Assembly: GCF_004358205.1 (NCBI RefSeq)
Contig: NZ_SMYO01000036.1
Coordinates: 1 to 14,705, forward strand
Length of the DNA: 14,705 bases
Direction: 5' to 3'
Origin: Bacillus salipaludis
GTDB lineage: Bacteria > Bacillota > Bacilli > Bacillales_B > DSM-18226
A program made the translations under genes and the position numbers. The notes under the pieces are model-generated. The model saw only the letters and a list, made by a program, of their open reading frames with translations, did not search any database and had not been told where the DNA came from. Below are positions 141 through 14,629 of the stretch, piece by piece (position 1 is the first letter of the stretch; every line of letters begins with the position of its first letter).

Positions 141-212
141 GACTAAAGGTGCTGTTTCTACAAAAAGTGGAGACGCTTTTCTCTATTCAACTAAATGGGC
201 AGTTTAGTGGAA
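141..212. repeat. Dispersed repeat, copy R1 (GAGACGC-core type)
   Basis: ACTAAA (142-147) and TTTAGT (203-208) form the terminal stem, next to GGTGC on the left and GGGCAG on the right. The core hairpin, GCTGTTTC against GAGACGC, runs into TTTTCTC. The same core type recurs in the copy at 14234-14312, while other copies carry different cores between the same kinds of ends. Confidence 0.6.
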
Positions 213-238
213 GAAGAAATTGGATAACTTTAAAAAGA

Positions 239-270
239 AAACTCGCCATAAACATCTTTGGCGAGTTTTG
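239..270 (-). terminator. Intrinsic terminator
   Basis: AAACTCGCCA (239-248) pairs perfectly with TGGCGAGTTT (259-268) around a ten-base loop. Read on the minus strand, the stem is followed by TTTTCTTTTT, so it best ends transcripts coming from the dehydrogenase fragment at 375-662. A shorter T-run on the plus side may make it bidirectional. Confidence 0.75.
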
Positions 271-374
271 CTATTTATTACCCAATATGGTCCATTTAAA
301 ATACAACTGTCTTCTTAAATAAATGATTTTCTGAAAAGCATTTAAAAAATTTAGTAACTCTTCACAAGTGGTGG

Positions 375-662
375 TTACTCAATTATGTTCTTCGTTGCTT
401 GGTACATTTTCTCGACGTATTCGTCGATTTCATCCCGTGACATACGTAAGCGATTCACAGAAGTACCATATCCGATTTCGTTTTTACCCTCTTCTAATTC
501 TTTGAAAATGCCGTCTGCGAATTCATCTAATGGTTCTCCAGGCAGACCTGCACCGTTTAAAAAATCTGTATTCACCGCTGGCGGAGCAACTTCAATGACT
601 TCTATAGACCTTAAAATTTTCCTTTGTGAAATTCTATCAGAAGGAAAGGGTAATTTTACCAA
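375..662 (-). pseudogene. C-terminal fragment of a DltE-like short-chain dehydrogenase
   Basis: The readable frame ends with residues typical of the C-terminal third of DltE-type SDR oxidoreductases: IEVIEVAPPAVNTD, then PLDEFADGIFKELEEGKNEIGYGTS and a final helix. Whole family members have about 250 residues, with a Rossmann GxxxGxG motif and a YxxxK catalytic pair near the middle. None of that is present here or upstream. The first 15-20 residues of the frame, from a TTG without a clear ribosome binding site, do not look like the family. This is therefore a 5'-truncated remnant. Repeat copy R2 begins about 40 bases beyond the broken end, so repeat-associated rearrangement may have caused the loss, though that is inference. 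Confidence 0.7.
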
Positions 663-704
663 TAGGATATTTTATATTTTTAAGTATAAAAATTATTTAT
701 CATA

Positions 705-788
705 TTAAGCTAACGGGTGCAAGAGTTACAGAACTGGCTGTCATTTAGGCAGCTTTTCTTATGGAACTAAATGGGCGGGTTAGTTGAA
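705..788. repeat. Dispersed repeat, copy R2 (CTGTC-core type)
   Basis: The left end TTAAGCTAACGGGTGC and right end GGGCGGGTTAGTTGAA carry the complementary pair CTAAC/GTTAG. The core hairpin is GCTGTC-ATTTA-GGCAGC (737-753), followed by TTTTCTT. It is nearly identical to the core of R7, and differs from R4 at stem positions where pairing is kept by G-T wobble. Confidence 0.7.
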
Positions 789-909
789 CAATCGTCATTA
801 GCTTTTTTCCACAAACGATAAATGCGAAAGCCCCAGTTCCTTTAGATAAAAGGGGATGGGATCTGATTGTAGAAAAATCGAGAATATTTTTAAAAGCGTC
901 TTATCAAAA

Positions 910-1380
910 TTAGCTTTTTACACCCATATGTTCAATTATTCGCTTCATTGCTTGAACCTGTCCCATATGGGCAGCTTCATGCATCAGCGTTACACACGCC
1001 AGTTCTCCAAAGGTTTTACATCCCAGGAATGGTGTTTCTAAAGTGTTGTTTAGTTGTTCAGCTGAAATTTGCTGAAGACGAGCTAATTGATCTTTTAGCT
1101 GTACCATAAGTTCATCCATAGTAGGTACATTTCCTGTCCAATCAGCTGGTTTCGTACCGTTCCCGAACAATTCCATATAGTTTGTGGGAAGATGGGTTGT
1201 TGCATGAGGAAAACCAAACATGGTTTGTTCAGTAACTGTCAAAACGTGACCAGTATGCCAGTGAATTGTGTTATTGAAACCACCTGGCTGGAGATCTGTT
1301 TGGTCCTTGGAAATAGACCCTAAGATCTTGATGAAGTACTCTCTTGTCATTTCAAATTGCTTAAATAAAAGTTCGTTCAT
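910..1380 (-). CDS. DinB-family putative metal-dependent protein
   Basis: This 156-residue protein has the size and layout of the DinB/YfiT four-helix family. The family's metal-binding histidines appear as H45 in HTGHV and as H134 and H138 in HEAAHMGQV, so the likely metal triad is intact. Family members in Bacillus include putative thiol-dependent transferases and DNA-damage-induced proteins; the substrate cannot be told from sequence. The ATG follows AAAGGAGG at good spacing, which fixes the start. It stands alone on the minus strand between R2 and the thioredoxin gene, apparently as its own unit. GACATT-A-AATGTC (1464-1476) upstream is a possible operator, but nothing else supports that. 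Confidence 0.85.
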   Translation of the reverse strand: MNELLFKQFEMTREYFIKILGSISKDQTDLQPGGFNNTIHWHTGHVLTVTEQTMFGFPHATTHLPTNYMELFGNGTKPADWTGNVPTMDELMVQLKDQLARLQQISAEQLNNTLETPFLGCKTFGELACVTLMHEAAHMGQVQAMKRIIEHMGVKS

Positions 1381-1395
1381 TCGCTTTCTCCTCCT

Positions 1396-1630
1396 TTAAC
1401 ATAAACAACCATATTTTACCATAAAATAAGAGCGAATATGGCCTTTTTCTGTAACAATTTATTGACATTAAATGTCTAATTTTTTACTTTGTTTTCAATA
1501 GTTGAACCTAAAATATGGAATAATTTCCGTCCTTTAGCTCATAAGAAAACGGATTCTACAACATCCACACCCTATTAACATGAACTACAACTCGTTATAA
1601 AAATGGGGTTGCAACCTTTTTTATTTTTGT
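1396..1630. other. Intergenic stretch, no gene seen
   Basis: AT-rich, with no open frame of note on either strand. It holds the short palindrome GACATTAAATGTC (1464-1476) upstream of the DinB gene, and GGTTGCAACC followed by a T-rich run near 1606-1628, which could be a weak plus-strand terminator with no gene in front of it. Confidence 0.4.
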
Positions 1631-1664
1631 AGAGCAAGATTGTGAGAGATTATGGTGCTTAAAA
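1631..1664. repeat. Possible solo left end of the dispersed repeat
   Basis: GAGCAAGATTGTGA here is identical to the flank and outer end of copy R7 (near 6185-6198), and the following GCTTAAAA resembles the next part of its terminal repeat. No matching core or right end follows before the thioredoxin terminator. Confidence 0.35.
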
Positions 1665-1671
1665 TGAAATA

Positions 1672-1693
1672 ACGACCAAGATTATCTGGTCGT
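1672..1693 (-). terminator. Intrinsic terminator after the thioredoxin gene
   Basis: ACGACCA (1672-1678) pairs with TGGTCGT (1687-1693) across an eight-base loop. On the minus strand it is followed by the T-rich TATTTCATTTT. It lies about ten bases past the thioredoxin stop codon. Confidence 0.65.
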
Positions 1694-1703
1694 ATACCTT
1701 TAA

Positions 1704-2024
1704 TTATTTATTTTGTTCGTTCAAAAACTCTCTTACTTGCTCTGGAGATTTTGCGTTAGCACTATGTAAATGGGCAAGCTTTTCTCCGTTTTTGAAGATT
1801 AGCAAGCTTGGGATTCCCATTACAGAATATTTTTCAGCAAGTTCTGGAAAATCATCACGATTGATTTCGTTCCACTCATATTGACTGTAATCCTTAATGA
1901 CATCATCGATGAACATATTCATTCTAGTACAGTCTGGGCACCAACCTGCAAAAAATTTTATGATAACAGGTTTTTCATTAGAGACCACTTGTTCAAATGT
2001 TTCAAGACTTTTAATTTTCTCCAA
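1704..2024 (-). CDS. Thioredoxin-family protein, YtpP-like
   Basis: The 106 residues form a single thioredoxin fold. The redox motif is W28-C29-P30-D31-C32, and the cis-proline follows in GIPS (P71). The WCPDC variant and the short length match the YtpP-type thioredoxin-like proteins of Bacillus rather than the classical WCGPC thioredoxin. It is expected to be a cytosolic thiol-disulfide reductase; its partner is unknown. There is no signal peptide. The start is TTG, chosen because AAGGAGG lies seven bases upstream and no ATG fits. It is transcribed alone and ends at the hairpin at 1672-1693. Confidence 0.85.
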   Translation of the reverse strand: MEKIKSLETFEQVVSNEKPVIIKFFAGWCPDCTRMNMFIDDVIKDYSQYEWNEINRDDFPELAEKYSVMGIPSLLIFKNGEKLAHLHSANAKSPEQVREFLNEQNK

Positions 2025-2104
2025 GAGATTTCCTCCTTATTAAAATAACCAATGGGATTGATTATTTATTTATTAGTATTGTATAAAGTAATTTCTTCTC
2101 ATTC

Positions 2105-2206
2105 AAATTTTTTGATTGGTTAGTACTTGCTCTAATTTAAGACAAAGAAGCACTTATACCAATTGCTATTGGAGTTTTTGCTTTATGGTCATTTTTTAGT
2201 GGGTAG
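2105..2206 (+). other. Possible remnant of a small membrane protein gene
   Basis: One plus-strand frame reads DWLVLALI, a stop, then DKEALIPIAIGVFALWSFFSG and a stop at 2204-2206. This resembles a decayed hydrophobic C-terminus, but there is no start or ribosome binding site and the match to a family is not secure. The rest of the 2025-2545 gap holds repeat R3 and a terminator; 2309-2460 shows nothing recognisable. Confidence 0.2.
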
Positions 2207-2223
2207 AAAAGGTTTTCGTTATA

Positions 2224-2308
2224 AAACTAACGGGTGCTTATGTTAGGGATGATGATCGCTGCGGCAGTCATTTTTTCTTGTTGAACAAACGGGGCAGGAT
2301 CGTGGAAG
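2224..2308. repeat. Dispersed repeat, copy R3 (CTGCGGC-core type)
   Basis: The left end is AAACTAACGGGTGCTTATGTTA and the right side TTGAACAAACGGGGCAGG. The core hairpin is ATGATCGC-TGCG-GCAGTCAT (2252-2271), followed by TTTTTTCTTG. The right terminus (ATCGTGG) has drifted from the usual TTAGTT. The TTATGTTA segment groups it with R5, R10 and R12. Confidence 0.65.
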
Positions 2309-2462
2309 AAAGGAAAGTTATTTATAGTAAGGAATATTTTTCTTTTAGATTGATTTTGATAAAACAATCGTATTAGATGTCGGAGGAAATATAATATGGG
2401 TACATTTTAATGCGAGGTGAATTTGTAATAAAATATTGAAAAAATAGCATAAACAAAAAAAG

Positions 2463-2505
2463 AGCACGGGAAGAAAAACTTCTTATTTCCTTTCCATGCT
2501 TTTTT
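2463..2505 (-). terminator. Probable terminator of the COG4705-like gene
   Basis: An imperfect hairpin pairs AGCACGGGAAG with the TTCCATGCT side. On the minus strand the stem is followed by CTTTTTTTGTTT. It lies about 40 bases past the stop of the gene at 2546-3394. Confidence 0.5.
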
Positions 2506-2545
2506 AAGGACTCATTAGATTGGCCCTTTGTATGTCTTTTAAGTT

Positions 2546-3394
2546 TTAATCTACTTGGAGATTAGATTCGTTTATTCTCGATTTACTTGTTGTGAACTGA
2601 ATAATAATGCAGATTACGAGAATAGCCAATAAAATAGCGGAAGCGATTTCTGTACCATTTTCTAAACCTAGTCCACCTTTTTCGTGAGGTTTAATCAAGT
2701 AATCACCGAACGTTGCCCCGAAAGGACGAGTCAATACAAATGCTAACCAGAATAAAAATACTCTATTTATTTTTGTAAACCAATACGCTAAAAGAACGAT
2801 TAATATTAACCCACCTGTGACCATAGCGCCTTGAGCAATTGTAAGTCCTAAACCTTGTTCCAGATAATTTCCACCACCAGCTAACGTTCCGACTCCTGAA
2901 GCTTTGTGCGATAAAAAATCTCCTGCTGCTGTACCTAGTGTATTAGAAACTAGAATGGCTATCCAATATAGAATTTCAACTCGTTTTGTTGCTATACTCT
3001 TAACGTTTAATGTTGGCTCTGTGAAATACCAAAATAAAAAAATAATCACCAGCAAACTTACTAATAGCAGAGACCCTTTCAGATATCCTAGCCCTAATGA
3101 ACGGTCCATAAAGTCAGAAAATGCTGTTCCTGCAAGACTTGTTGATAAAATAACAGTCCAATAAACAGGAGGAACATATTTCTTAACAAACAATTGAATG
3201 GTTAAAAAGATAGCAAATACACCAATGAAAATCAGAAATGGGATTATGTAATTATCTTCTGTTCCAGGTACAGTAACTAAATCACTGCCTGTTTCTCCTA
3301 ATGTTGTGGCGGCAATCTTCATAATCCAGAATAGGAGTGTCAATTGAGGAATCTTGTTAATTGACGAATTTACGATTTCTTTTGTAGTAGACAT
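2546..3394 (-). CDS. COG4705-like multi-spanning membrane protein
   Basis: The 282 residues are mostly hydrophobic helices, about eight, with a short charged tail. The chain is a four-fold internal repeat. Each unit has an FW/YW start to a helix, then a G-x-x-x-[SG]-D motif (GETGSD 33-38, GTAFSD 89-94, GTAAGD 154-159, GATFGD 226-231), usually with GLG shortly after (101-103, 181-183, 241-243). This matches the uncharacterised membrane-protein group COG4705. No reaction is established; the repeated aspartates suggest ion or metal handling, but that is a guess. The ribosome binding site (GAAAGGTG) is moderate and about 11 bases from the ATG. A paralogue with an extra C-terminal part lies at 10420-11928. 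Confidence 0.75.
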   Translation of the reverse strand: MSTTKEIVNSSINKIPQLTLLFWIMKIAATTLGETGSDLVTVPGTEDNYIIPFLIFIGVFAIFLTIQLFVKKYVPPVYWTVILSTSLAGTAFSDFMDRSLGLGYLKGSLLLVSLLVIIFLFWYFTEPTLNVKSIATKRVEILYWIAILVSNTLGTAAGDFLSHKASGVGTLAGGGNYLEQGLGLTIAQGAMVTGGLILIVLLAYWFTKINRVFLFWLAFVLTRPFGATFGDYLIKPHEKGGLGLENGTEIASAILLAILVICIIIQFTTSKSRINESNLQVD

Positions 3395-3596
3395 TTAAAT
3401 TGCATTCACCTTTCATTTTTATTTTAAATTACAATAAATAGCCTCTTTATTTATTAAAGTAAGCTGAAAAAAGGATTAATTTTATATGATATTTCTCCGA
3501 CTGCATAATTTGCATCGCCATCGAATGTGGGCAGATAAGAATGTCATACACAGAGTAAAATATTTGGGGGTTGGTAAAAAACACTAAATATTATGT

Positions 3597-3700
3597 TTGT
3601 GAAGTAAACTACTTAAACTATCGGGTGCAGGAGTTACAGATCCAGCTGCCATTAAGGTGGCTTTTTTTCTTCTTCAAGTAACGGGGCAGGATAGCTTAAG
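3597..3700. repeat. Dispersed repeat, copy R4 (CTGCC-core type)
   Basis: The left end runs from TTGTGAAG through CTTAAACTATCGGGTGC, and the right end is GGGGCAGGATAGCTTAAG. CTTAAACTATC pairs with GATAGCTTAAG with one mismatch, giving a long terminal stem. The core hairpin is GCTGCC-ATTAA-GGTGGC (3645-3661), followed by TTTTTTTCTT. It ends about 25 bases before the extended -10 of the signal peptidase gene, so its terminator would shield that promoter from upstream reading. The rest of the gap (3395-3596) shows nothing recognisable. Confidence 0.75.
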
Positions 3701-3724
3701 AAAAAACATATACCCAAACAAATA

Positions 3725-3733
3725 TGGTAAAAT
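3725..3733 (+). promoter_or_regulatory. Extended -10 promoter of the signal peptidase gene
   Basis: TG-G-TAAAAT is an extended -10 element about 40 bases before the start codon. No good -35 is present at the usual spacing, as is common for extended -10 promoters. Confidence 0.45.
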
Positions 3734-3772
3734 GAGGATATGAAACAGATGAATATTTAGGGAGGTCGAGAA

Positions 3773-4321
3773 ATGGTAAAGAAGAAAAATGAAATGTATG
3801 AATGGATTAAAGCCTTAATAGGTGCACTTGCAATAGCAGTCATTATTCGCTCTTTTTTCTTTACGCCGATTGTTGTTGACGGTGCTTCAATGAACCCTAC
3901 TCTTCAGGACCAGGACCGTATGATTGTAACAAAAATCGGAGAACCGAAAAGATTTGATATTGTTGTGTTTCATGCTCCAGAAGATAAGGATTACATAAAA
4001 CGCGTAATCGGACTCCCAGGTGACAGAATTGAATATAAAAATGATGTTTTATATATAAATGGGAAAGCTTACAACGAACCTTACTTGGAAAAATACAAAA
4101 ATTCATTAAAAGATGGAGGAACATTAACAGACTCCTTCACTTTAAAGGAAACCGCAGTAGGTAGTGATACTGTCCCTAAAGATAGTTTGTTTGTAATGGG
4201 AGATAACAGAAGGCAAAGCAAAGACAGCCGTGCTATTGGAGCGATACCATTGAAAAAGGTAATAGGGACAACAAATGTTGTTTATTATCCAATAAAAGAT
4301 ATTAAAATCGTAAATGACTAA
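3773..4321 (+). CDS. Signal peptidase I (SipS/LepB type)
   Basis: This enzyme removes signal peptides from exported proteins at the outer face of the membrane. The 182 residues match the usual Gram-positive length: one N-terminal membrane anchor (about 11-30), then the catalytic domain. The nucleophile is S39 in GASMNPTL and the general base K76 in DYIKRVIGLPGD. The conserved GDNRRQSKDSR box is at 143-153, so the enzyme looks active. AGGGAGGT lies seven bases before the ATG. It is monocistronic, with its own extended -10 promoter and two hairpin terminators. Bacillus genomes carry several sip paralogues and the exact one cannot be told. Confidence 0.93.
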   Translation: MVKKKNEMYEWIKALIGALAIAVIIRSFFFTPIVVDGASMNPTLQDQDRMIVTKIGEPKRFDIVVFHAPEDKDYIKRVIGLPGDRIEYKNDVLYINGKAYNEPYLEKYKNSLKDGGTLTDSFTLKETAVGSDTVPKDSLFVMGDNRRQSKDSRAIGAIPLKKVIGTTNVVYYPIKDIKIVND

Positions 4322-4324
4322 ATC

Positions 4325-4359
4325 CAGTTTGACAAAATAGTTAGACTGTTTTCTTCTTT
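4325..4359 (+). terminator. First terminator after signal peptidase
   Basis: CAGTTTGAC (4325-4333) pairs with GTTAGACTG (4340-4348) when G-U pairs are allowed, and TTTTCTTCTTT follows. It begins three bases past the stop codon. Confidence 0.5.
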
Positions 4360-4366
4360 AACCATT

Positions 4367-4407
4367 GGGGTGCGTTTAATCCTAGAAGGATTACCACCCT
4401 TTTTTTG
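4367..4407 (+). terminator. Strong intrinsic terminator
   Basis: The stem GGGTG plus TTAATCC pairs with GGATTA plus CACCC around TAGAA, followed by seven T residues. It probably backs up the weaker hairpin just after the signal peptidase gene. Confidence 0.8.
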
Positions 4408-4457
4408 TTGAATACCTTCTTAAATAAACGGAACAGCATGTCTGAATAAATATAATA

Positions 4458-4479
4458 TGTGAAGTATTACACTTAAACT
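4458..4479. repeat. Solo left terminus of the dispersed repeat
   Basis: TGTGAAGTATTACACTTAAA is identical to the outer left end of copy R7 (6195-6214). The sequence after it is unrelated to any core, so this is an isolated end, left by decay or recombination. Confidence 0.6.
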
Positions 4480-4639
4480 CCCATGAAAATAAAAACTGAA
4501 TAAGGGCATGAAAAAATAGACCCAGAAAAACCAGTTTTTAAAAAAAGGCTGAGCCTCTTGAAGGATCGTATATAAGATTGGCTGGTAGATCGACTTGTGC
4601 AACCTTTCTACTTAAACTGAAATCAGTTAAAGCTGGCGC

Positions 4640-4850
4640 AACAACCAGAAAAAGGATTAATCTCCCATGAGTGCTACCCCTAAAGGGTGCGACAGTCGGT
4701 GGTACACCGTGGTCGTTGGAGTCAGACTAACGGATGGGCTCAAAGGCACCATAGTTCAAAGACCTTCTTCGCCAGCATTAAAACAGTATAGACGGTCTTA
4801 GCCATTTTCATTCTCTGTGGTGCAGCGCTGATTTTGCGCTACATGGATGG
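4640..4850 (+). ncRNA. Orphan structured region resembling an IS110-family end (candidate bridge-RNA segment)
   Basis: The stretch has no convincing gene but is dense in hairpins: ACCC-CTAAA-GGGT (about 4676-4688), GGTG-GTA-CACC (about 4699-4709), a wide AGACC...GGTCT pair enclosing a large internal loop (about 4759-4799), and AGCGC...GCGCT (about 4824-4840). The wording GGGTGCGACAGTCGG and GGTACACCGTGG reminds me of the non-coding ends of IS110-family elements, which encode bridge RNAs with large guide loops. No transposase follows: repeat R5 begins at once after it. If the reading is right, this is a dead element end. The family link is from memory and needs a search. Confidence 0.35.
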
Positions 4851-4930
4851 CTAACGGGTGCTTATGTTAACGATGGAATAGCTGCGGCGATTCCTGTTTT
4901 TTATTGGGGTAACGGCTTGGGAGAGTTTAA
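4851..4930. repeat. Dispersed repeat, copy R5 (CTGCGGC-core type)
   Basis: The left end is CTAACGGGTGCTTATGTTA. The core hairpin is GGAATAGC-TGCG-GCGATTCC (4875-4894), then TGTTTTTTATT. The right side (GGGGTAACGGCTTGGGAGAGTTT) is clearly degenerate. It abuts the structured region on its left, and the small gene at 4945 begins just to its right. Confidence 0.6.
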
Positions 4931-4944
4931 ATAGGAGGAATAAT

Positions 4945-5229
4945 ATGAAAAAATTTCGTGGGAAAAAGAGATATTTCCATAAAATATGGAGAAAAGTAAA
5001 TAGCTTTCATCTGGAACTTGATAATGAGTCATGGTTTAATTTTTATCATATTCACCTTGATTGGGATGGTCTTGGAAAAGGAAGTGTGAAGATAAGAAGA
5101 GAGCATATAAAAGCATATTTTGCTATTTATAAAAGGGTATTAAATAAGCTAAAAATGTTTGAAAAATCTTATTACAAGAGTCAAATAAGATTGGGCTGCT
5201 GCGGCAGCCTTTTTTGCTTGTTCCACTAA
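4945..5229 (+). CDS. Hypothetical protein whose 3' end lies in a dispersed repeat
   Basis: AGGAGG six bases before the ATG marks a genuine start. The first 75 or so residues are basic and aromatic, with ELDNESWFNFYHIHLDWDGLGKGSVKIRREHIKAYF, and resemble a Bacillus hypothetical protein family that I recall as longer. From about residue 76 the frame enters repeat copy R6, and its last residues (LGCCGSLFCLFH) are simply the translated hairpin of that repeat. The natural C-terminus is therefore probably lost. No signal peptide or membrane helix is seen. The function is unknown; it may be a pseudogene. Confidence 0.55.
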   Translation: MKKFRGKKRYFHKIWRKVNSFHLELDNESWFNFYHIHLDWDGLGKGSVKIRREHIKAYFAIYKRVLNKLKMFEKSYYKSQIRLGCCGSLFCLFH

Positions 5230-5246
5230 TGGGGCAGTTTAGCGAA
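5173..5246. repeat. Dispersed repeat, copy R6, left end missing
   Basis: The similarity starts inside the element at CAAGAGT. The core hairpin is perfect, GGCTGC-TGCG-GCAGCC (5194-5209), followed by TTTTTTGCTTG. The right end ACTAATGGGGCAGTTTAG is intact. The usual left CTAACGGGTGC is absent, replaced by the coding sequence of the small gene. Confidence 0.6.
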
Positions 5247-5320
5247 AGAATGAAATCCTAGTCTTAACAATTGTAAACTATATATAATGTACTATAATAT
5301 TTCCAATATCATATACAACA

Positions 5321-5360
5321 AAGAAGTGCCCATGCGACAGTTCATGCGGGGACACTTCTT
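5321..5360. terminator. Hairpin terminator, probably bidirectional
   Basis: AAGAAGTG plus CCC (5321-5331) pairs with GGG plus CACTTCTT (5348-5360), with one bulged A. It sits between the converging small gene (plus) and the repeat-peptide gene (minus) and has T-rich flanks on both strands. Confidence 0.7.
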
Positions 5361-5418
5361 TTCATAAAAAAGCAATTTTTTGTTGAAGATTTACCAACCT
5401 ACAAAACAGCTAAAACAA

Positions 5419-5835
5419 CTAAATAAAGCCGCCGCCCATCATGCCACCACACATCATGCCGCCGCCCATCATGCCACCACACATCATGCCGCCGCCCATC
5501 ATGCCACCACACATCATGCCGCCGCCCATCATGCCACCACACATCATGCCGCCGCCCATCATGCCACCACACATCATGCCGCCGCCCATCATGCCACCAC
5601 ACATCATGCCGCCGCCCATCATGCCACCACACATCATGCCGCCGCACATCATGCCACCGCAACGCATACCGCCGCACATCATGCCACCGCAACGCATGCC
5701 GCCGCCCATCATGCCACCGCAACGCATACCGCCAAATATTCTCGGATCCTGACTCTGAGCACCCATAGGAATTAACTGACCAACTTGGAAATTATCCATT
5801 CCTAAAGTTTGAAGTTCATTATGAAAATTGAGCAT
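5419..5835 (-). CDS. Met/Gly/Cys-repeat peptide, candidate heterocycloanthracin/sonorensin-like precursor
   Basis: The 138 residues split into a leader-like N-terminus of about 35 residues (MLNFHNELQTLGMDNFQVGQ, then QSQDPRIFGG) and a low-complexity tail of CGG and GGG units separated by MM or MR, with 12 cysteines. The leader pattern (NF..ELQ.L, then QVG) and the CGG repeats resemble heterocycloanthracin/sonorensin-family precursors, whose cysteines are cyclised to thiazoles before export. No cyclodehydratase, dehydrogenase or transporter gene is adjacent, so maturation, if any, would act in trans. A Met/Cys-rich metal-binding or coat protein is the main alternative. GGGAGGT precedes the ATG by four bases. 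It ends at the hairpin at 5321-5360. Confidence 0.6.
   Translation of the reverse strand: MLNFHNELQTLGMDNFQVGQLIPMGAQSQDPRIFGGMRCGGMMGGGMRCGGMMCGGMRCGGMMCGGMMCGGMMGGGMMCGGMMGGGMMCGGMMGGGMMCGGMMGGGMMCGGMMGGGMMCGGMMGGGMMCGGMMGGGFI
5431..5730. repeat. 30-bp tandem repeat, ten units
   Basis: Seven successive 30-base units (5431-5640) are identical, and three more (5641-5730) are diverged. Each unit encodes ten residues on the minus strand, MMCGGMMGGG in the uniform part and CGG units with MR in the older part. The identical block forms the C-terminal half of the peptide, so it has expanded recently, probably by slippage. Confidence 0.95.
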
Positions 5836-6192
5836 TTTTACCTCCCATGTTTATTTATTAATTTAGGTTAAACTGACATCTAACAAGAGATTTGAACGGA
5901 GGAATTTTGTCAGTAATGTGTAATTAAGAGATACTCCGTGTACTCTCTTCAACAAAATATGATTACTTTTAGGTGACTGTTACTGGTTTAAAAGCCTATT
6001 TAATGTTAAAAGCTTCATAAAATGTGGTGTCTGGAAGTAAAGTTGGGATTAATTTTATTCAACTTGTTTTAATTCTCAACGAAAGATCTCTTTAAGGGGA
6101 AGATTTGCTATTGAAAAGGAAGGAACCCCGTCAACCTTATTCTTGTTAGGAACTAGAGGTGGACTACTGCCCTTGTTTGTGTCGGAGCAAGA
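5836..6192. other. Intergenic stretch, nothing recognised
   Basis: AT-rich upstream region of the repeat-peptide gene. A short open stretch near 6095-6235 without start or ribosome binding site was not accepted as a gene. No clear promoter could be picked. Confidence 0.4.
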
Positions 6193-6308
6193 TTGTGAAG
6201 TATTACACTTAAACTATCGGGTGCAAGAGTTGTAGATCAAGCTGTCATTTAGGCAGCTTTTCTTATTGAAGTAACGGGGCAGTTTAATTTAAGTACATTT
6301 CTTCACAA
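6193..6308. repeat. Dispersed repeat, copy R7, the most complete copy
   Basis: Both outer ends are kept: TTGTGAAG (6193-6200) and CTTCACAA (6301-6308). Inside these, CTTAAACTA on the left pairs with the GTTTAATTTAAG side on the right. CGGGTGC and GGGGCAG flank the core hairpin GCTGTC-ATTTA-GGCAGC (6241-6257), which runs into TTTTCTT. The full length is 116 bases, the best guide to the boundaries of the family. 6309-6492 shows no further feature. Confidence 0.8.
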
Positions 6309-6492
6309 ACTTATTCATAATCCTATCCCTAAAATATACAAACGCATCAAATTAATTACTCAATGTGTTTGTAACTAAATAGTCGCCTGCTATTTTTGCG
6401 AAGTCGAGACGTTTGTATTACTATCATCATTTTGGTCACTTTATCATGTAAATCAAGTCCACCAAAAAGGGCTCTTTTGACGAAAAGTTTTA

Positions 6493-6553: not shown

Positions 6554-6620
6554 AACACAAAATACCTGTGTTACAGAGTACTGAAAAAAATATAAGTAAA
6601 ATATAAATGGAGGTAAAGAA

Positions 6621-7547: not shown

Positions 7548-7558
7548 TAACTCGGTAG

Positions 7559-7579: not shown

Positions 7580-7645
7580 CAGACTAAGTAGGAGGGTATA
7601 GGCAATCTGGCTCCGCAATGCGCATTTTATAAGGAGGAAAAAAGT

Positions 7646-9157: not shown

Positions 9158-9326
9158 GTACACCATTATGGGATGTTTGCCATATCAATAGTCAGCTGCT
9201 GCGATGAATTCATTTGCTACACATGAAGGCTGCTTAAATGCGGTGCAACCATCAATGCCATACTATCGATTGAGTTGATCAAGATGGTAAAATTAACAGC
9301 AAAGGATTTCCTCTGGGGAGAGTAAT
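9158..9326. other. Intergenic stretch after the ABC genes
   Basis: No gene and no clear terminator are seen. The base composition drops back to AT-rich within this stretch, marking the right edge of the G+C-richer block. Confidence 0.35.
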
Positions 9327-9738
9327 ATGGAACAAGTGAATTTTTTTAAAACAGTCTTTTTTTCGAAAAGGTTGAGAAAGCTTTCTTATTTCATAAAAAG
9401 TAATTAAAGAACGTTTGCCAGAAGCTGATTTCCAGCACGTTGGAAGCGAGTAAAAGGACCACACTGGAAAATAATATTAGCGATTAATACAGTGGGTGCA
9501 GTAATCACCACCATTGTTGCTGTCATCTTTGGAGTTACCAAATTTACAAGTGGAGCGTGGGTTGTTTTATAGTGATACCACTTATCATATTCGCTTCATT
9601 AGCCCAATTACCATCATGATCAAAACATTTCATCAGTTAAAGATTGATGTTAACACTCTAAAGCCTAAAGGAAACAGGGTTATCACAATTGTTCTTGTTT
9701 CAGGAGTACATCGGGTACCATATCATTTAAAGAAATAG
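9327..9738 (+). pseudogene. Decayed APC-family permease (KimA-like)
   Basis: GGGGAG precedes an ATG at 9327 that reads MEQVNFFKTVFFSKRLRKL and then stops. From 9456 a second frame reads PHWKIILAINTVGAVITTIVAVIFGVTKFTSGAWVVL, stops at 9570, and continues one frame over as IVIPLIIF. Another shift gives QLKID, then NRVITIVLVSGVHRV to a stop at 9736-9738. The TKFTSGAW, IPL and VSGV blocks in this order resemble the C-terminal part of the large KimA/YdaO-type potassium or amino-acid permeases (about 600 residues). The middle of the gene is gone and frameshifts break the rest. The N-terminal part is less certain than the C-terminal part. Confidence 0.55.
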
Positions 9739-9745
9739 GTTGTAT

Positions 9746-9774
9746 AGGCATGATAAATTCTCATGCCTTTTATA
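9746..9774 (+). terminator. Intrinsic terminator of the former permease gene
   Basis: AGGCATGA (9746-9753) pairs perfectly with TCATGCCT (9761-9768) around TAAATTC, followed by TTTATATATTTTATT. It outlived the gene it served. 9775-9921 shows nothing recognisable. Confidence 0.75.
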
Positions 9775-9921
9775 TATTTTATTGATCTAATTCAGGTTTT
9801 TTTGCGTATTGAGTTCTGTTGATGTACGCACTAACATCGTAAACAGCAGGGCATTCAATAACCCACCTTAATATTCAAAGCTACGGGATTGTAAAACATT
9901 ACATTTTATTAAATTTAATTT

Positions 9922-10101
9922 TTACTTAGTTTCTTTTTTCCGTGATTTTATACATGATATAGACACCCATATTGATAAAACAATGGATAAGGCTCCAGTA
10001 AATTCATAACTTAACCGATAAATCGGGTTTATAAATAATTCATACGTACCATATAAAAAACCTAAACAAATGAAAATAAGGTCTATTATTGAAATCTTCA
10101 T
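9922..10101 (-). CDS. Small membrane protein of unknown function
   Basis: The preferred start is the ATG at 10101, because AAGGAG lies six bases upstream; a start 14 codons earlier has no such site. The 59 residues hold two hydrophobic segments (IIDLIFICLGFLYGTYELF and FTGALSIVLSIWVSISCI) joined by a short NPIYRLSYE loop, with a basic tail KSRKKETK. This suggests a two-helix inner-membrane protein with both ends in the cytoplasm. No family is recognised, and no terminator or partner gene is evident. Confidence 0.5.
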   Translation of the reverse strand: MKISIIDLIFICLGFLYGTYELFINPIYRLSYEFTGALSIVLSIWVSISCIKSRKKETK

Positions 10102-10256
10102 TTTCAGCTCCTTAACTTTTAAACCTTTACCATGACCTACCATATTATCAAATAAATACTTTAAATTTGTGACCGTTAAAATTTTAATCCAAGTTCTTTA
10201 GAAAAATTCATCATTATATGTCCAATCAATTCTTTATATATTATTTTCTATTCAAC

Positions 10257-10323
10257 CTGTCATTTTGACAGTTTTTCTTATGCACTAAAGTGGCAGACTG
10301 GTTTAAGTGTAATCTTTCACATT
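10257..10323. repeat. Dispersed repeat, copy R8, left half missing
   Basis: The core hairpin is CTGTC-ATTTT-GACAG (10257-10271), followed by TTTTTCTTA. The right end keeps the long terminus: GGTTTAAGTGTAATCTTTCACA is the near-exact reverse complement of the left end of R7 and of the solo end at 4458. The usual left half is absent. 10102-10256 shows nothing else. Confidence 0.65.
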
Positions 10324-10388
10324 CTTTAAATGCTCTTAACAATGGCTTTTCGCTTTTGACAATTAAATTGGGGTTGTCTCAAAAAATA

Positions 10389-10410
10389 GGGAACCGCTTT
10401 TGCGTTTCCC
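10389..10410 (-). terminator. Terminator of the long COG4705-like gene
   Basis: GGGAACCGC (10389-10397) pairs with GCGTTTCCC (10402-10410) with one mismatch. On the minus strand TATTTTTTGAG follows. It lies about ten bases past the stop codon at 10420. Confidence 0.75.
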
Positions 10411-10419
10411 AAGGATTTT

Positions 10420-11928
10420 CTATTTATTTGCATCATTTATGATACTGAGCGAATTGGTAAGTGCAGATTTTGACTTGCTAACATCAGGGCTTGATGAACG
10501 AACTGCAGCCAACACTACATCAATGGTTCCATCAATTTTTGTCCAGGAGGTACCATCTATTTTCCTAAGTTTAGGCTCTGCTGAATCCCATTGGTGTTCC
10601 AAATCATCCGCACTTTTCTTCGCTAAAGAAGAGTTATGGGAGTTAACATCTTTTAGCATAGTATTTTCAATTGTAGCGAAAGCTGTTAATTGTCCAACTA
10701 ATGTTGTTGAAGAAGCATTCGCAGATAATTTATTTGCGGTGTTTAGGACGCTGAGCGAATTGTTTAGTGCAACTTTACCCTTGCTCGCATCTGGATTGGC
10801 CGAACGAGTAGCTGCTAATACAACGTCAATCGTACCATCAATTTTAGTCCACGTGGTGCCATCGATTTTTCTAAGCTTGGCTTCTGATGTGTCCCATTGA
10901 TGTTCTAAATCATCCGCACTTGTTTTAGCCGAACTAAAGTTATTTGCGTTTACTTCCGTCAACATATCATTTTCAATTTTAATAAATCCTGTTAATTGTC
11001 CTCCTAATGAAGCTTGTGAAGTAACTGTTTGAGATGCTATAGCATTACTTCTCCACACATAACCGCCTATACCAACAATTAAGAAAATACACAGTGCCGC
11101 AATGGTTTGGGTCATAACATTTTTCTTACTTCCATTTGTTGGGCCTGTTTTCCCTGTTTCGCTCTTTGCATTTATATCAATTTTTGTAACAGCGAGAAAA
11201 ACTATAATCGCTAAGATAGCTACAAGAAAAATGACACTTGTCACAGTAGTACCCAACCCTAACCCGCCATTAACTTTTGGTTGAGAAAGGAAATCTCCTA
11301 TTGATGCTCCTAGAGGACGAGTCAAAATATACGCAATCCAAAATGCTAGTACACCATCAAGTTTCATTTTCCATGCCACGAAAATACACGCAATGATTAT
11401 AATGACTGTTATCCCTGTATTCAGATAACCAAGACCGAGTTGTTCGGAATATAAATCACCGACTGCAGTTCCGAGTGCAAATGTGAAGAGAATGGTAAGC
11501 CAATAGAAAACTTCTCTTTTCCTTGTGAAAATTGAGTGTATTGAGAGAGTTTTTTCACTTAGATACCAGAAAAGAAATGTTAATGCTAGTAGTACGGAGA
11601 ATACCCCCGTGCTAATTTCAAGAGGTACTCCAATACCGTCTGTCAAATTATCTGTTACCAATGTTCCAAAGACGCTTATAAGAACAACTGTTAGCCAATA
11701 AATGCCTGGAACGTATTTCTTTGCTCTAAATTGAAGAAACAACACAATGAAAAAAGCGATTCCCATAATGATGGTAGTGTTAGTTAAACCAAGTCCTAGA
11801 TTGAAATTAAGAAAATCAGCAAATGTTTCACCAACAGTGGTACATAAAACCTTGATAATCCAGAAGAAAATCGTCACTTCTGGTACCTTGTTAAGTAAAA
11901 TTTTCATTTTGTTTTGGTTCGTTTCCAT
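10420..11928 (-). CDS. COG4705-like membrane protein fused to a duplicated extracytoplasmic domain
   Basis: Residues 1-250 are a paralogue of the protein at 2546-3394, with the same four-fold motif (GETFAD 33-38, GTLVTD 88-93, GTAVGD 153-158, GASIGD 207-212). A hydrophilic linker follows, then a further membrane helix (271-292) and two tandem copies of a 92-residue domain (309-400 and 411-502). Each copy contains DLEHQWD, then LRKIDGT.WTKIDGTIDVVLAA.RS and ends in DANK or TANK. The domain is helical and hydrophilic; I do not recognise it by name. It is probably outside the cell, which is inferred from the extra helix. AAAGGA about eight bases before the ATG supports the start. Function unknown. 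Confidence 0.75.
   Translation of the reverse strand: METNQNKMKILLNKVPEVTIFFWIIKVLCTTVGETFADFLNFNLGLGLTNTTIIMGIAFFIVLFLQFRAKKYVPGIYWLTVVLISVFGTLVTDNLTDGIGVPLEISTGVFSVLLALTFLFWYLSEKTLSIHSIFTRKREVFYWLTILFTFALGTAVGDLYSEQLGLGYLNTGITVIIIIACIFVAWKMKLDGVLAFWIAYILTRPLGASIGDFLSQPKVNGGLGLGTTVTSVIFLVAILAIIVFLAVTKIDINAKSETGKTGPTNGSKKNVMTQTIAALCIFLIVGIGGYVWRSNAIASQTVTSQASLGGQLTGFIKIENDMLTEVNANNFSSAKTSADDLEHQWDTSEAKLRKIDGTTWTKIDGTIDVVLAATRSANPDASKGKVALNNSLSVLNTANKLSANASSTTLVGQLTAFATIENTMLKDVNSHNSSLAKKSADDLEHQWDSAEPKLRKIDGTSWTKIDGTIDVVLAAVRSSSPDVSKSKSALTNSLSIINDANK
10423..11004 (-). repeat. Tandem duplication inside the COG4705-like gene
   Basis: Two copies of about 276 bases (10729-11004 and 10423-10698) start 306 bases apart and encode the two C-terminal domains. 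The protein copies are highly alike, especially over KSADDLEHQWD and the KIDGT.WTKIDGTIDVVLAA block, while many third codon positions differ, so the duplication is not recent. Confidence 0.85.
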
Positions 11929-11961
11929 ACGTAATTTCCTTTCTTAAAGTGGTTTTCCGCA

Positions 11962-12022
11962 AACTTAACTTTAATACCGCTGACTCTCAAACAGTAGTTG
12001 CCATAATTTTAATGATCCAAAG
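11962..12022 (-). pseudogene. Scrap of a third COG4705-like gene
   Basis: On the minus strand one frame reads LWIIKIMATTV, a stop, then ES. This matches the first helix of the two intact paralogues (FWIIKVLCTTVGET and FWIMKIAATTLGET). The stop stands where the conserved glycine should be, consistent with GGA becoming TGA. Homology ends within about 20 codons. It sits directly upstream of the intact copy. Confidence 0.6.
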
Positions 12023-12257
12023 AGATTATTGTTCATTGCTGTATTTATTTACACCAGTTTTCCTGTGTTCCCCAACCTCGTTAATTCAACCACTAGTAAT
12101 TTTTTTCCAGAAAACCTCATTTCTATTTTTGAAAATAATCATTATTAATACTCCTTTTTCGATTGAAGTCATAATTAACAATTTAAACTATACGATATTG
12201 TTTTGGAGTAATTATTAAGAATCAATTAACCCTATGTTAACTGTCTATTAAGCTCTA
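12023..12257. other. Intergenic stretch, no gene accepted
   Basis: Very AT-rich. A plus-strand open frame covering 11949-12218 has no ribosome binding site, and overlaps the COG4705 remnant and the leader of the long minus-strand gene, so it is not called. Confidence 0.4.
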
Positions 12258-12287
12258 TTGAAAATTGAGTAATGTATATGCTATAAA
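12258..12287 (+). promoter_or_regulatory. Promoter of the DedA gene
   Basis: TTGAAA (12258-12263) and TATAAA (12282-12287) are 18 bases apart, with TG one base before the -10 (extended form). The start codon is about 80 bases downstream. Confidence 0.55.
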
Positions 12288-12370
12288 TTGCATTTTTTAT
12301 GGCAAACTGTTATATATTTATTGTCTAAATTTTCACCATACACATTTCATTAATATAAGGGAGAATTGCA

Positions 12371-12988
12371 GTGAGCATTTTACATCAATTAGGGGACATA
12401 GCAATAAACTGGATTAATTCAATTGGATATTGGGGCATCCTTTTAGGAATGATTTTGGAAAGTGCTTGTATACCAATTCCAAGCGAAGTCATCATGCCTT
12501 TTGGGGGCTATTTAGTTTCAACAGGGCATTTAAATATGGTAGGCGTGATTTTGGTTGGAACACTTGGCAATATCATCGGCTCTTTAATTGCCTATGCACT
12601 GGGATATTGGGGTGGAAAAAGATTGATCGAAAGATTCGGGAAGTACGTATTTTTGTCAAAAAAACACTTGGAATCTGCTGAAAAATGGTTCGACAAGCGG
12701 GGAGAAATCACTGTATTTGTTTCACGTATTTTACCTGCTATTCGTACATTTATTTCCTTACCAGCTGGAATTGCCCGTATGGCCCTTGGGAAGTTCTTAA
12801 TTTATACAGCAATCGGGAGTGTAATTTGGTCTGGATTCTTAACATATGTAGGATATATGTTAGGGAAAAACTGGGGAAACATTCAAAACTTCTTACATCC
12901 TATTGCTTATTTTGTTGCAGTTATTGTATTTTTCATTTTAGTTTACCTAGCTATAAAAGTTATAAAAAGTAAAAAGGCATCAGCTTAA
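12371..12988 (+). CDS. DedA-family membrane protein
   Basis: The 205 residues match the DedA (SNARE-associated/VTT domain) family. Key features are E30 in the first helix region, PIPSE (35-39), the GNIIGSLIAYALGYWGGK stretch, and SRILPAIRTFISLPAG (118-133) with R119 and R125. These acidic and basic residues in re-entrant loops are needed for function in characterised members. Several DedA proteins, including Bacillus UptA, recycle undecaprenyl phosphate across the membrane for wall synthesis; which paralogue this is cannot be told. The start is GTG, with AAGGGAGA seven bases upstream. It has its own promoter and stands alone. Confidence 0.9.
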   Translation: MSILHQLGDIAINWINSIGYWGILLGMILESACIPIPSEVIMPFGGYLVSTGHLNMVGVILVGTLGNIIGSLIAYALGYWGGKRLIERFGKYVFLSKKHLESAEKWFDKRGEITVFVSRILPAIRTFISLPAGIARMALGKFLIYTAIGSVIWSGFLTYVGYMLGKNWGNIQNFLHPIAYFVAVIVFFILVYLAIKVIKSKKASA

Positions 12989-13300
12989 CATAAATGATGG
13001 ATGTTTAAGGACATTTTAATTTTATACTTTTGGCCATCTACCGACGGTTTTTTAAAGCTATCACAGGCATCATAGTTAATATTTTAACTTATCGTTCCTC
13101 GGTTTATATTATCCACATTGGAAATGATGGCACTCAGCTATTTCCTACCCGTTCCTTTATGGATATTCATGTTTATGCATTTGAAATTCGTCCACTGGTT
13201 AAGAGAAACGTCTAGGCAAGCTAGTAAGCTTAATTAAAGAAGTCATCATCACTGGGTTACTTAAAGAAGCATGGCTTTTTTGGTTTATTAACGAAGAGAG
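12989..13300. other. Intergenic stretch with possible decayed coding sequence
   Basis: No gene is called. A plus-strand frame at 13030-13215 lacks a ribosome binding site. Another frame at 13203-13319 reads EKRLGKLVSLIKEVIITGL, faintly like the acetyl-CoA-binding part of the GNAT protein further on, but it is too short to call. No terminator for the DedA gene is obvious. Confidence 0.3.
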
Positions 13301-13391
13301 TGTGAAGGATTGTACTTAAGCTAACAGGTGCAAGAATTTAATAAAGGGTTGATGCGGCAACTCTTTTCTTATTCCACAACTAGGCAGGAAT
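13301..13391. repeat. Dispersed repeat, copy R9
   Basis: The left end is TGTGAAGGATTGTACTTAAGCTAACAGGTGC. The core hairpin is GGGTTG-ATGCGG-CAACTC (13346-13363), followed by TTTTCTT. The right end ACTAGGCAGGAA has lost most of its complementarity to the left. Confidence 0.6.
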
Positions 13392-13398
13392 GAGAAAA

Positions 13399-13432
13399 AT
13401 TAGTGCTCCCATGCGAGCACTAATGGTACAAT
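13399..13432 (+). promoter_or_regulatory. Promoter of the acetyltransferase gene with a perfect inverted repeat
   Basis: ATTAGTGCTC (13399-13408) and GAGCACTAAT (13415-13424) are exact reverse complements. Two bases later lies the extended -10 TG-G-TACAAT (13425-13432). The palindrome covers the -35 region and has no T-tract, so it reads better as an operator than as a terminator. Confidence 0.5.
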
Positions 13433-13468
13433 CTGCTTAATCATAAAAGTATGATGGAGGGGAGTAGC

Positions 13469-14002
13469 GTGAAAGATTCGATTATATTACGTGCAATTGA
13501 TGTTGGGGATATTCAAAACTTTGCATTTATCGAGAGGGCAGCGCAGCTATTACAGAACCTCGTTTTAAACGGTGCGGCACTCGGATGGGTCGACCCACCC
13601 TCAACGGACGAGGTGGTCTCCCTGCTTCGGGAGTTGTCCGTCGTGAGTGAGCGCGGCGATGCGTGCTTACTTTCAGTTTGGGTCGGACCAGACCTTGCAG
13701 GACTCGGATACTGGAGGCGCTATAATCGCCCGACTCATCGCCCAAATGCCGACATCGAAAAAGTAGCAGTCGATCCGCGGTATCAAGGTCGTGGTTTAGG
13801 GCGAAAGCTTGTAAGTCAGTTAATTTCGGAAGGGGTCACTACTGGAATTGAGGTATTAACCCTAGATTTCCGTGGTGACAACGAGCGTGCTGCCAAGTTG
13901 TACAGATCTCTGGGATTCACGGAATACGGGCGTTTACCTCGGTTTGTAGCTGTTGGTACTATGCGATATGACAAGGTATTATACGCCATCGATTTGCGCT
14001 GA
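13469..14002 (+). CDS. GNAT-family N-acetyltransferase
   Basis: The protein should transfer an acetyl group from acetyl-CoA to an amine. With the GTG start at 13469 it has 177 residues. This start is preferred because GGAGGGG lies eight bases upstream; the in-frame ATG at 13451 lies before that site. Motif A is VDPRYQGRGLGRKLV, with the CoA pyrophosphate loop QGRGLG at 106-111. Motif B is NERAAKLYRSLGF (138-150). The beta strand LTLDFRGDN between them is typical. The middle of the gene is richer in G+C than its neighbours, suggesting transfer. The substrate is unknown; small-molecule detoxification or resistance is possible. Confidence 0.9.
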   Translation: MKDSIILRAIDVGDIQNFAFIERAAQLLQNLVLNGAALGWVDPPSTDEVVSLLRELSVVSERGDACLLSVWVGPDLAGLGYWRRYNRPTHRPNADIEKVAVDPRYQGRGLGRKLVSQLISEGVTTGIEVLTLDFRGDNERAAKLYRSLGFTEYGRLPRFVAVGTMRYDKVLYAIDLR

Positions 14003-14007
14003 TAGAC

Positions 14008-14053
14008 GAGTGACGAAAGTCGTATAAATAAACGATAAGAAATTTCGTTACTC
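14008..14053. other. Hairpin after the acetyltransferase gene
   Basis: GAGTGACGAAA (14008-14018) and TTTCGTTACTC (14043-14053) pair with one G-T position around a 24-base loop. No T-tract follows, so it is not a standard terminator; the real one is probably the core of R10. Confidence 0.35.
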
Positions 14054-14093
14054 TGGCAGCACCAATACTGAGTATTTGAATTTAGCTTCTGTC

Positions 14094-14170
14094 GCTAAAG
14101 GGGGCTTATGTTAGAGATGGGATAGCTGCAGCTATCCCGTTTTTTTATTGAGCTGCCGAAGCAGATTAGA
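14094..14170. repeat. Dispersed repeat, copy R10, with perfect palindromic core
   Basis: CTAA (14094-14097) and TTAG (14166-14169) are the worn ends. The core GGGATAGCTGCAGCTATCCC (14119-14138) is a perfect 20-base palindrome followed by GTTTTTTTATT. It probably serves as terminator for the acetyltransferase gene. Confidence 0.65.
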
Positions 14171-14233
14171 CAAGGAAGGAATGTAAAAAAGAAAGGCGGG
14201 GGATTTTTATTTGTTTGATATTGCGAAGGTTTT

Positions 14234-14312
14234 CACTTAAAGTAACGGGTGCGTTTCCACAATAAGTAGAGACGCATTTTTTCAAATTGAAGTACCTCGG
14301 CAGGTTAGTTCA
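14234..14312. repeat. Dispersed repeat, copy R11 (GAGACGC-core type)
   Basis: The left end CACTTAAAGTAACGGGTGC and right end CGGCAGGTTAGTT frame the core hairpin TGCGTTTC/GAGACGCA (14250-14257, 14269-14276), followed by TTTTTTC. The core matches R1 rather than its neighbours R10 and R12. Confidence 0.7.
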
Positions 14313-14381
14313 GGAAAATAATACAAATAATCCCAATGTATAGGACTTAATAATGTTATTATTTTGTAAAGGGGTGGTTGT

Positions 14382-14570
14382 ATGAAAGATGAGAATAAAC
14401 CATTTAATGATGCAATAGACCATTTTAACGAGATTGAAGGAAATGCTGGTAACCCTTCTAATGCTAAGATAAACAAGTTACCAAAACCATTAAAATACTT
14501 TGGATACTTTATGATTGGTTTCATTTCATTATCCATTCTATTAATGATTATAGTAAATTTATTAAATTAA
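14382..14570 (+). CDS. Small single-helix membrane protein, unknown function
   Basis: AAAGGGGTGG just before the ATG supports a genuine start. The 62 residues have an acidic, asparagine-rich N-terminus (about 1-34) with no obvious fold, a PKPLKYFGYF lead-in, and one hydrophobic helix (about 41-61) at the very C-terminus. This is a tail-anchored layout with the N-terminal part in the cytoplasm. No family is recognised. Repeats R11 and R12 flank it, and R12 starts at its stop codon and would act as its terminator. TAATAA-TG-TTATTA (14348-14361) upstream is symmetric, but its meaning is unclear. Confidence 0.6.
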   Translation: MKDENKPFNDAIDHFNEIEGNAGNPSNAKINKLPKPLKYFGYFMIGFISLSILLMIIVNLLN

Positions 14571-14629
14571 CTAATACTTACGGGTGCTTATGCAAAAGAC
14601 GGGATGCTTCGGCGATCCCGTTTTCTTAT
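14570..14629. repeat. Dispersed repeat, copy R12, interrupted by an intron
   Basis: The left end ACTAATACTTACGGGTGCTTATG leads into the core hairpin ACGGGATGC-TTCG-GCGATCCCGT (14599-14621) with a UUCG loop, then TTTCTTAT. The right half expected in this family is absent. The sequence switches to the intron start instead. Confidence 0.65.

Follow-up and report, generated by a model that had tools for sequence, protein, structure and literature searches.

The question raised by this locus is what role is played by a short repeat that recurs about a dozen times in one direction among genes lying on both strands. The window analysed here is the whole 14,705-nucleotide stretch of Bacillus salipaludis contig NZ_SMYO01000036.1 (positions 1 to 14,705, forward strand). 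A sequence-only reading of it had described a dispersed family of about twelve copies with long inverted ends and a terminator, likened to a miniature inverted-repeat transposable element (MITE). The repeats are probably the joints of a site-specific recombination array, that is, of an integron-like module system rather than a classical MITE.

The repeat family is real and the original observation was confirmed. A profile model built from 61 copies (one from the window and 60 from other records) gave 12 window matches at E ≤ 2.1e-5 and two extra rows at E values of 0.58 and 0.77. Every one of the 14 rows lies on the + strand. Genes of the window occupy both strands, and the gene-like open reading frames (ORFs) between copies 1 to 4 are on the minus strand, the copies being on the + strand. 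A strict two-part pattern matched the window exactly once and matched none of 200 shuffled versions. Rfam 15 yielded no match in the window at gathering thresholds, in keeping with the earlier remark that no named family could be assigned.

Anatomy of the repeat

Four boxes of one motif, approximately CTTnTTnAACTAAC, were found in alternating direction in 297 copies, arranged as box-GGGTGC-box, middle, box-GGGGCAG-box. Copies with more than two mismatches, copies too near an end and duplicates were excluded from this set. The first pair of boxes forms site A (AACTAAC-GGGTGC-TTTAGTT) and the second forms site B (AACTAAC-GGGGCAG-GTTAGTT), each with inverted arms of about 13 bp and an asymmetric 6–7 bp spacer between them. 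The long ends of up to about 26 bp reported earlier are real but not general, since both long arms occur together in the window only at 6193–6308 and the consensus arm is about 13 bp. Copies are alike across approximately 95 bp. Judged from its sequence, a complete copy consists of two recombination-core-like sites, with a predicted intrinsic terminator usually lying in the short gap between A and B.

A spacer census of the first 61 regions gave 723 hits, of which 401 had a 7-base and 281 a 6-base spacer (one site may count under two lengths), and the leading spacers were GGGGCAG (240) and GGGTGC (166). A hairpin followed by a T-tract was present on the element strand in 217 of the 297 closely matching copies (127 records); the same held for 3.4% of dinucleotide-shuffled sequences and, on the opposite strand, for 9 of the 297. 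The built-in intrinsic terminator of the sequence-only reading was thereby upheld.

The outer arms and the TGC/GCA triplets had also been proposed to form conserved RNA stems, and these are not supported. Pairing of the right arm of one copy with the left arm of the next (209 pairs) gave 7.03 matches, against 6.92 when permuted (standard deviation 0.10), and pairing of left with right arm inside one copy was near expectation in the 297 copies. Pairing excess between boxes was confined to site B, where some positions of its two arms exceeded expectation. The covariation test over the copies detected nothing beyond the consensus, either within a copy or between neighbours. RNAalifold predicted no consensus pair, and the profile model was therefore built from sequence only. 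These results give no support to a structured RNA beyond the terminator, as outer-stem covariation and a consensus pair were both absent. An attC-like covarying palindrome was considered and rejected for the same near-expectation arm pairing in the same copy and between neighbours, and the failed test led to the reading of each copy as two separate core sites. Because the boxes are kept as sequence and their pairing is mostly not above expectation, protein-binding arms fit better than an RNA stem.

The anchor-to-anchor distance (loci L001–L126 and the window) peaks at 56–63 bp and at 48–50 bp, about one helical turn apart.

Shared blocks and their junctions

Cross-genome comparison yielded 184 shared blocks, in 171 of which block and copy orientation were concordant. 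The 13 blocks of inconsistent orientation and then 11 near region ends were dropped, leaving 160. Their 5′ ends lay inside a copy, or no more than 20 bp from one, in both genomes for 55 blocks, in one genome for 27 and in neither for 78; the corresponding counts for 3′ ends were 45, 47 and 68. As background, 7.5% of the DNA lies that near a copy. A block of 956 bp with 99.0% identity between two Peribacillus genomes runs from ACTAACGGGGCAG to CTAACGGGTGC between unrelated flanks. Among the block pairs inspected (22 of 23), further blocks stop at B, past a shared terminator. Blocks begin and end both at A and at B, and gene-holding B-to-A blocks are among them.

Arm usage was compared at 108 junctions, which came from pairs of genomes or from pairs of regions within a genome; duplicates and junctions alike on both sides had been removed. 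The near (block-side) arm was the better match at 77 of them and the far arm at 7, and 24 were tied. At variable arm positions the matching fraction was 0.72–0.95 on the block side, 0.26–0.61 for the other arm and 0.27–0.47 for unrelated sites. Since the near arm prevails by 77 to 7, the switch is placed by these alignments between the inner arm parts, at A and at B alike. Because blocks appear to switch inside the 6–7 bp spacers and the gene segments between copies are shared as blocks, the ends resemble tyrosine-recombinase cores rather than transposase terminal inverted repeats. The MITE-like description was thus apt in taking the repeat to be of a mobile type, but apparently not in taking its ends for transposase termini, and the earlier interpretation as a whole is partly supported.

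One of six inspected insertion candidates lies beside site B and contains a single long, mostly masked ORF. It was left out as module movement because the start of the ORF looks IS110-like. At 17 places (L137, L138, L143, L146 and L264 of genome G001, and other regions) the B spacer or GTTAG is followed by CATTCCTG or one of its variants, and in G001 one longer start is common to six of the 17. A long ORF, masked over most of its length and with what we take to be an IS110-like start, comes after the CATTCCTG site in L138.

A tyrosine recombinase within the arrays

A tyrosine-recombinase scan of six array genomes found a 279-residue protein inside the arrays. Its sequence has R, K, HxxR, H and Y, which we take to be the tyrosine-recombinase residues. 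It scored best against XerA/XerD models, passing NF040815 marginally (220.1 bits, cut-off 220), and its solved relatives are 4a8e and 1a0p. The integron integrase model TIGR02249 was failed (95.9 bits, cut-off 265). Compared for the insertion in the catalytic domain that is specific to IntI, the protein aligns to XerD throughout with no large insertion and to IntI4 only over residues 186–268. It is approximately 31–32% identical to other Xer-type proteins of the same genomes, and within the arrays it is multi-copy and often decayed.

An A-like site on one side of the gene and a B-like site on the other were found in 7 of 34 recombinase loci (L201, L206, L207, L218, L220, L235 and L243). In Paenisporosarcina HGH0030 a 1.23 kb A-recombinase-B unit is present in two arrays with 99.67% identity over 1,228 bp, compared with 28% and 31% outside it; the left switch is at TAAC-GGGTGC and the right one directly past GGGGCAG. 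On this comparison the unit moved as one. A longer relative with the same two kinds of ends, of the sort that had been sought, was thus found, and it carries a tyrosine recombinase between them.

Recombinase copies or fragments of at least 53% identity were present in 10 of 13 related genomes with arrays, several of them with stops. Across 150 genomes of the order, such relatives (fragments included) were found in 31. Among the matches listed, copies of the repeat occurred in 19 of these 31 genomes against 31 of the 119 without a relative (Fisher p = 4.5e-4). Also among the matches listed, a copy lay within 25 kb of the recombinase in 11 of the 19 (G003, G032, G052, G088, G089, G095, G101, G104, G114, G128 and G145), on a different contig in 7 and far apart in 1. 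Gene and copies point in opposite directions in 7 of those 11 genomes and in the same direction in 4. A second 279-residue recombinase, P0002, was set aside, as its 2.6-kb locus contains no copy.

Distribution and orientation of the arrays

A two-half pattern search found at least 120 stretches in Peribacillus, Neobacillus, Viridibacillus, Metabacillus, Psychrobacillus, Paenisporosarcina, Cytobacillus, Sporosarcina, Lederbergia, Domibacillus and Jeotgalibacillus, and in strains labelled Bacillus or Paenibacillus. The 13 related genomes, picked for pattern hits, were searched with the profile model, and more than 100 copies were found in 10 of them: nine gave 144–155 matches (best ~150 candidates scored in each) and the others 125, 89, 74 and 37. 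At E ≤ 1e-8 at least 50 of the 150 genomes of the order have a match, mostly 1 to 5 (best 28 candidates per genome). Large copy numbers thus characterise certain lineages and not the order as a whole.

Adjacent copies were on the same strand in 813 pairs and on opposite strands in 3 (913 copies in 100 regions, 3.9–20 kb long, of the window and eight genomes; selection was for the presence of copies, so that density is biased and orientation is unselected). With looser detection in the first loci, 233 neighbours were in the same direction and 17 in opposite directions. The median distance from B to the next A was 707 bp. In one 20-kb region, L130, the profile scored 28 hits, and small ORFs lie between the sites. 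In these eight genomes and the window, all 100 regions had positive GC skew on the strand of the copies, as did all 61 regions analysed with the copies masked. A simple replichore rule was unsupported: in a complete Neobacillus chromosome 29 matches fall on one strand and 2 on the opposite one.

Viral contigs searched with two exact patterns gave no match, and phage records searched with a single 131-bp query gave none. On Staphylococcus plasmid pKKS627 (L001 2851–3423), dfrK (2919–3410) is flanked by two B sites, with spacers at 2851 and 3417. Sequences resembling site A were also seen on a Listeria plasmid, upstream of its TetR-qacH pair, and on an E. coli plasmid, next to a region with an ABC-F gene (L003 near 1641; L002 near 5031 and 6091). 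Peribacillus plasmid L006 has Tn554-like genes at 5809–9414 (two tyrosine recombinases and a DUF6262 protein), starting about 700 bp from a copy.

Proposed mechanism and alternative explanations

In the proposed mechanism, an XerA/XerD-like tyrosine recombinase, itself carried between A and B, would exchange strands within the spacers, A with A and B with B. Exchange between directly repeated A sites, or between directly repeated B sites, would release a circle of module plus site. If that circle then entered a further A or B site, the array would be re-formed with its direction unchanged. The asymmetric spacers would let modules enter one way only and would thus give the single orientation. 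The terminator, if it acts in vivo, would insulate each module, and the short A-terminator-B copy would relate to the A-recombinase-B unit as a non-autonomous to an autonomous element. A wider proposal, which we regard as evenly poised, is that Gram-positive bacteria separately invented the gene-cassette array. It would use an Xer-derived recombinase that lives as its own module, sites A and B with an exchangeable terminator, and more than 100 gene or terminator modules per genome. The result would be a large mobile gene pool of soil bacilli, some of it perhaps on plasmids of other hosts.

Several results weigh against a recombination array served by this protein. The other 27 of the 34 recombinase loci have one site or none (the site motif is tuned to the core family). 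Genomes G004, G009 and G010, with 125, 147 and 37 matches, contain no close recombinase relative; a relative without a copy was found in 12 of 31 genomes, and copies without a relative in 31 genomes. Arrays without the recombinase may be left-overs or may depend on an enzyme acting in trans, and recombinases without copies may belong to diverged sites missed by the model. Succession of sites was not strictly alternating (AB 324, BA 310, BB 135, AA 120). At block ends the far arm was somewhat over background, both at A (0.61 against 0.47) and at B (0.49 against 0.37). The junction counts allow several junctions per block, are not phylogenetically independent and resolve the switch to about the inner arms. 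No clean pair of empty and filled loci with all junctions at sites was obtained among 10 candidates of a first set and 10 of a larger set; the closest candidate, an insertion of 1.6 kb into DNA that matches on the whole, has only its right junction at site A.

Other processes were weighed against the same data. MITE-like insertion would have A-terminator-B units inserting on their own, with A-recombinase-B as the autonomous parent and the genes between as bystanders. The prevalence of short A-to-B spacing (74% of 324 gaps ≤ 90 bp) and the movement of the recombinase unit as one are in its favour. However, gene-holding B-to-A blocks with ends at sites are also shared, blocks start and end at both A and B, and independent insertions have no need of one common strand, so that we consider this account unlikely. 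Host recombinases of the XerC/XerD dimer-resolving type, in place of the 279-residue protein, could drive the modules as in the dif modules of Acinetobacter. The large arrays in G004 and G009, where the only relatives are about 31–32% identical and include host Xer-type proteins, agree with this. Yet the near-symmetric arms would seem better suited to one recombinase than to two, and the 279-residue protein has sites as its bounds, is linked to copies and tends to occur in the same genomes as they do; a role for the host enzymes is improbable to a similar degree.

Homologous recombination between dispersed repeats would be helped by the likeness of copies over about 95 bp, with general recombination shuffling the DNA between them, and repeats in the same direction are expected to delete or duplicate what they enclose. 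Despite that whole-copy homology, the switch falls between the inner arms of two short sites at 77 of 84 informative junctions, and the site-bounded recombinase with its co-occurrence would be left unexplained. We therefore rate this possibility as very unlikely. That the repeats are ordinary terminators retained by selection downstream of genes would suit the hairpin in 217 of 297 copies and the excess of coding DNA on the copy strand (576 kb against 238 kb opposite, 61 regions). It is nonetheless barely credible, given arms and spacers conserved outside the terminator, copies that keep their direction where genes oppose it, as in the window, and shared blocks that break at sites.

Comparison with known systems

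Integrons, taken as attC cassettes, chromosomal integrons and clusters of attC sites lacking integrases (CALIN), resemble the recombination array proposed here. Both have one-direction arrays of exchangeable small-gene modules, short imperfectly palindromic sites, and a tyrosine recombinase gene near the modules that often faces the opposite way. attC sites are approximately 60–140 bp long and have the core GTTRRRY. The right-arm consensus here, GTTAGTT, does not fit that core, and the arm pairing and covariation that an attC-type fold would bring showed no excess in the same copy or between neighbours. The present system differs further from integrons in failing the integrase model, in its two core sites with a terminator between them and arms without covariation, in being spread over many islands rather than a single platform, and in having its recombinase gene between two sites in the manner of a module. 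IS1111-family elements target attC, according to one report (PMC11187229), and here too putative insertion sequences target the sites. Integrons are described as extremely rare in Firmicutes in another (PMC9024848).

Acinetobacter dif (pdif) systems have gene modules and short core sites with inverted arms, exchange within the spacer, and modules that shuffle (PMC13141974). Modules between short inverted-arm core sites, with exchange inside a short spacer, are common to both systems. In the same paper pdif sites bind XerC and XerD, alternate between C/D and D/C and are mainly plasmid-borne (PMC13141974). The present arrays differ in their one direction (813 against 3), two spacer classes (6 and 7 bp, against the 6-bp spacer of dif modules) and a dedicated recombinase carried within. 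Their near-symmetric TTnAACTAAC/GTTAGTTnAA arms are unlike the pdif arms given by that paper (PMC13141974). The 279-residue protein itself is of the simple Xer type represented by XerA and XerD. Among short interspersed repeats of bacilli, bcr1–bcr18 of Bacillus cereus are 100–400 bp long, and site-specific-recombination-like mobility has been suggested for them in their description (PMC6542083). Compared by that description only, bcr mobility goes with TTTAT motifs, and bcr1 belongs with the B. cereus group (PMC6542083), which sets them apart from the present family.

The system thus resembles integron cassettes and dif modules in its working and fails tested defining features of both. No published description was found in the literature searched, which omits most subscription papers and preprints. 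It is likely, though not proven, that this is a so far undescribed gene-shuffling system of soil bacilli, akin in its working to the integrons of Gram-negative bacteria. If so, Bacillaceae and their relatives would hold an integron-equivalent platform, with more than 100 sites in 10 of 13 genomes and a recombinase far below the integrase-model cut-off. The origin and shuffling of accessory genes in Bacillaceae would become testable, and a tractable two-site recombinase system would be at hand. Site-like sequences by dfrK and qacH on plasmids of other Gram-positive bacteria may be accounted for in the same way.

Copies and neighbouring features in the window

The window copies are worn. Site search recovered 15 sites, and both sites are present in only three copies (2219–2311, 3610–3703 and 6207–6294). 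All copies described below are on the + strand. The most complete, with two long arms, spans 6193–6308 (model 6207–6294; 61.9 bits), with the site A spacer at 6219–6224, a hairpin at 6239–6259 and the site B spacer at 6276–6282. A copy with a long left arm at 3597–3705 (model 3610–3703; 59.3 bits) has the A spacer at 3623–3628, a hairpin at 3644–3662 and the B spacer at 3683–3689, and the copy at 2219–2311 (56.7 bits) has its spacers at 2232–2237 (A) and 2291–2297 (B).

The copy at 703–791 (55.1 bits), worn at its right end, has the site A spacer at 715–720 and a terminator hairpin at 736–754. At 140–216 (27.8 bits) a terminator-like hairpin (153–175) and a site B spacer (196–202, TGGGCAG) are accompanied by a worn site A near 147–152, read by eye. 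Right parts remain at 5179–5250 (40.8 bits; hairpin 5193–5210, site B spacer 5231–5237) and, with a long right arm, at 10257–10326 (model 10260–10307; 18.7 bits; hairpin 10257–10271, B spacer 10290–10296, GTGGCAG). Long left arms are seen at 13301–13392 (model 13313–13392; 36.7 bits; A spacer 13326–13331, AGGTGC; hairpin 13343–13366) and at 14222–14316 (model 14235–14316; 31.5 bits; site A spacer 14247–14252). Between these last two lies a copy at 14088–14175 (34 bits) with a worn site A spacer, GGGGGC, at 14100–14105. The left part of a final copy, at 14572–14630 (21.2 bits), contains a site A spacer (14582–14587) and the terminator region.

Positions 4454–4480 (a left arm; direct repeat D4, insertion boundaries) and 4851–4915 (model 4850–4915; 31.4 bits; site A spacer 4856–4861 and terminator region) look like the halves of one copy, parted by a repeated insertion of about 370 bp. 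The inserted element, at approximately 4477–4850, is repeated, mostly non-coding and up to about 375 bp long, and lies inside the left arm of A/B sites. It is also present in L045, L051, L101, L108, L158, L160, L162, L180, L282, L283 and L284. Among 13 distinct copies the AACGGG of the site follows 12 and AACT precedes 10. The element had no Rfam match; the CT at each of its ends and its choice of target may recall insertions of the IS110/IS1111 type.

An ABC-transporter ATPase at 7646–8404 is at most 93% identical to proteins named Neobacillus and Cytobacillus, which marks the host as bacillus-like. A minus-strand ORF at 5419–5835 encodes long GGMM(C/G) repeats over a 30-bp tandem repeat. Directly after the terminator of the last copy, 14631–14705 resembles what we take to be the start of a group II intron. 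Its Rfam hit is sub-threshold only (12 bits, E = 0.86), and 51 bp of it match three places in G003 at 80%.

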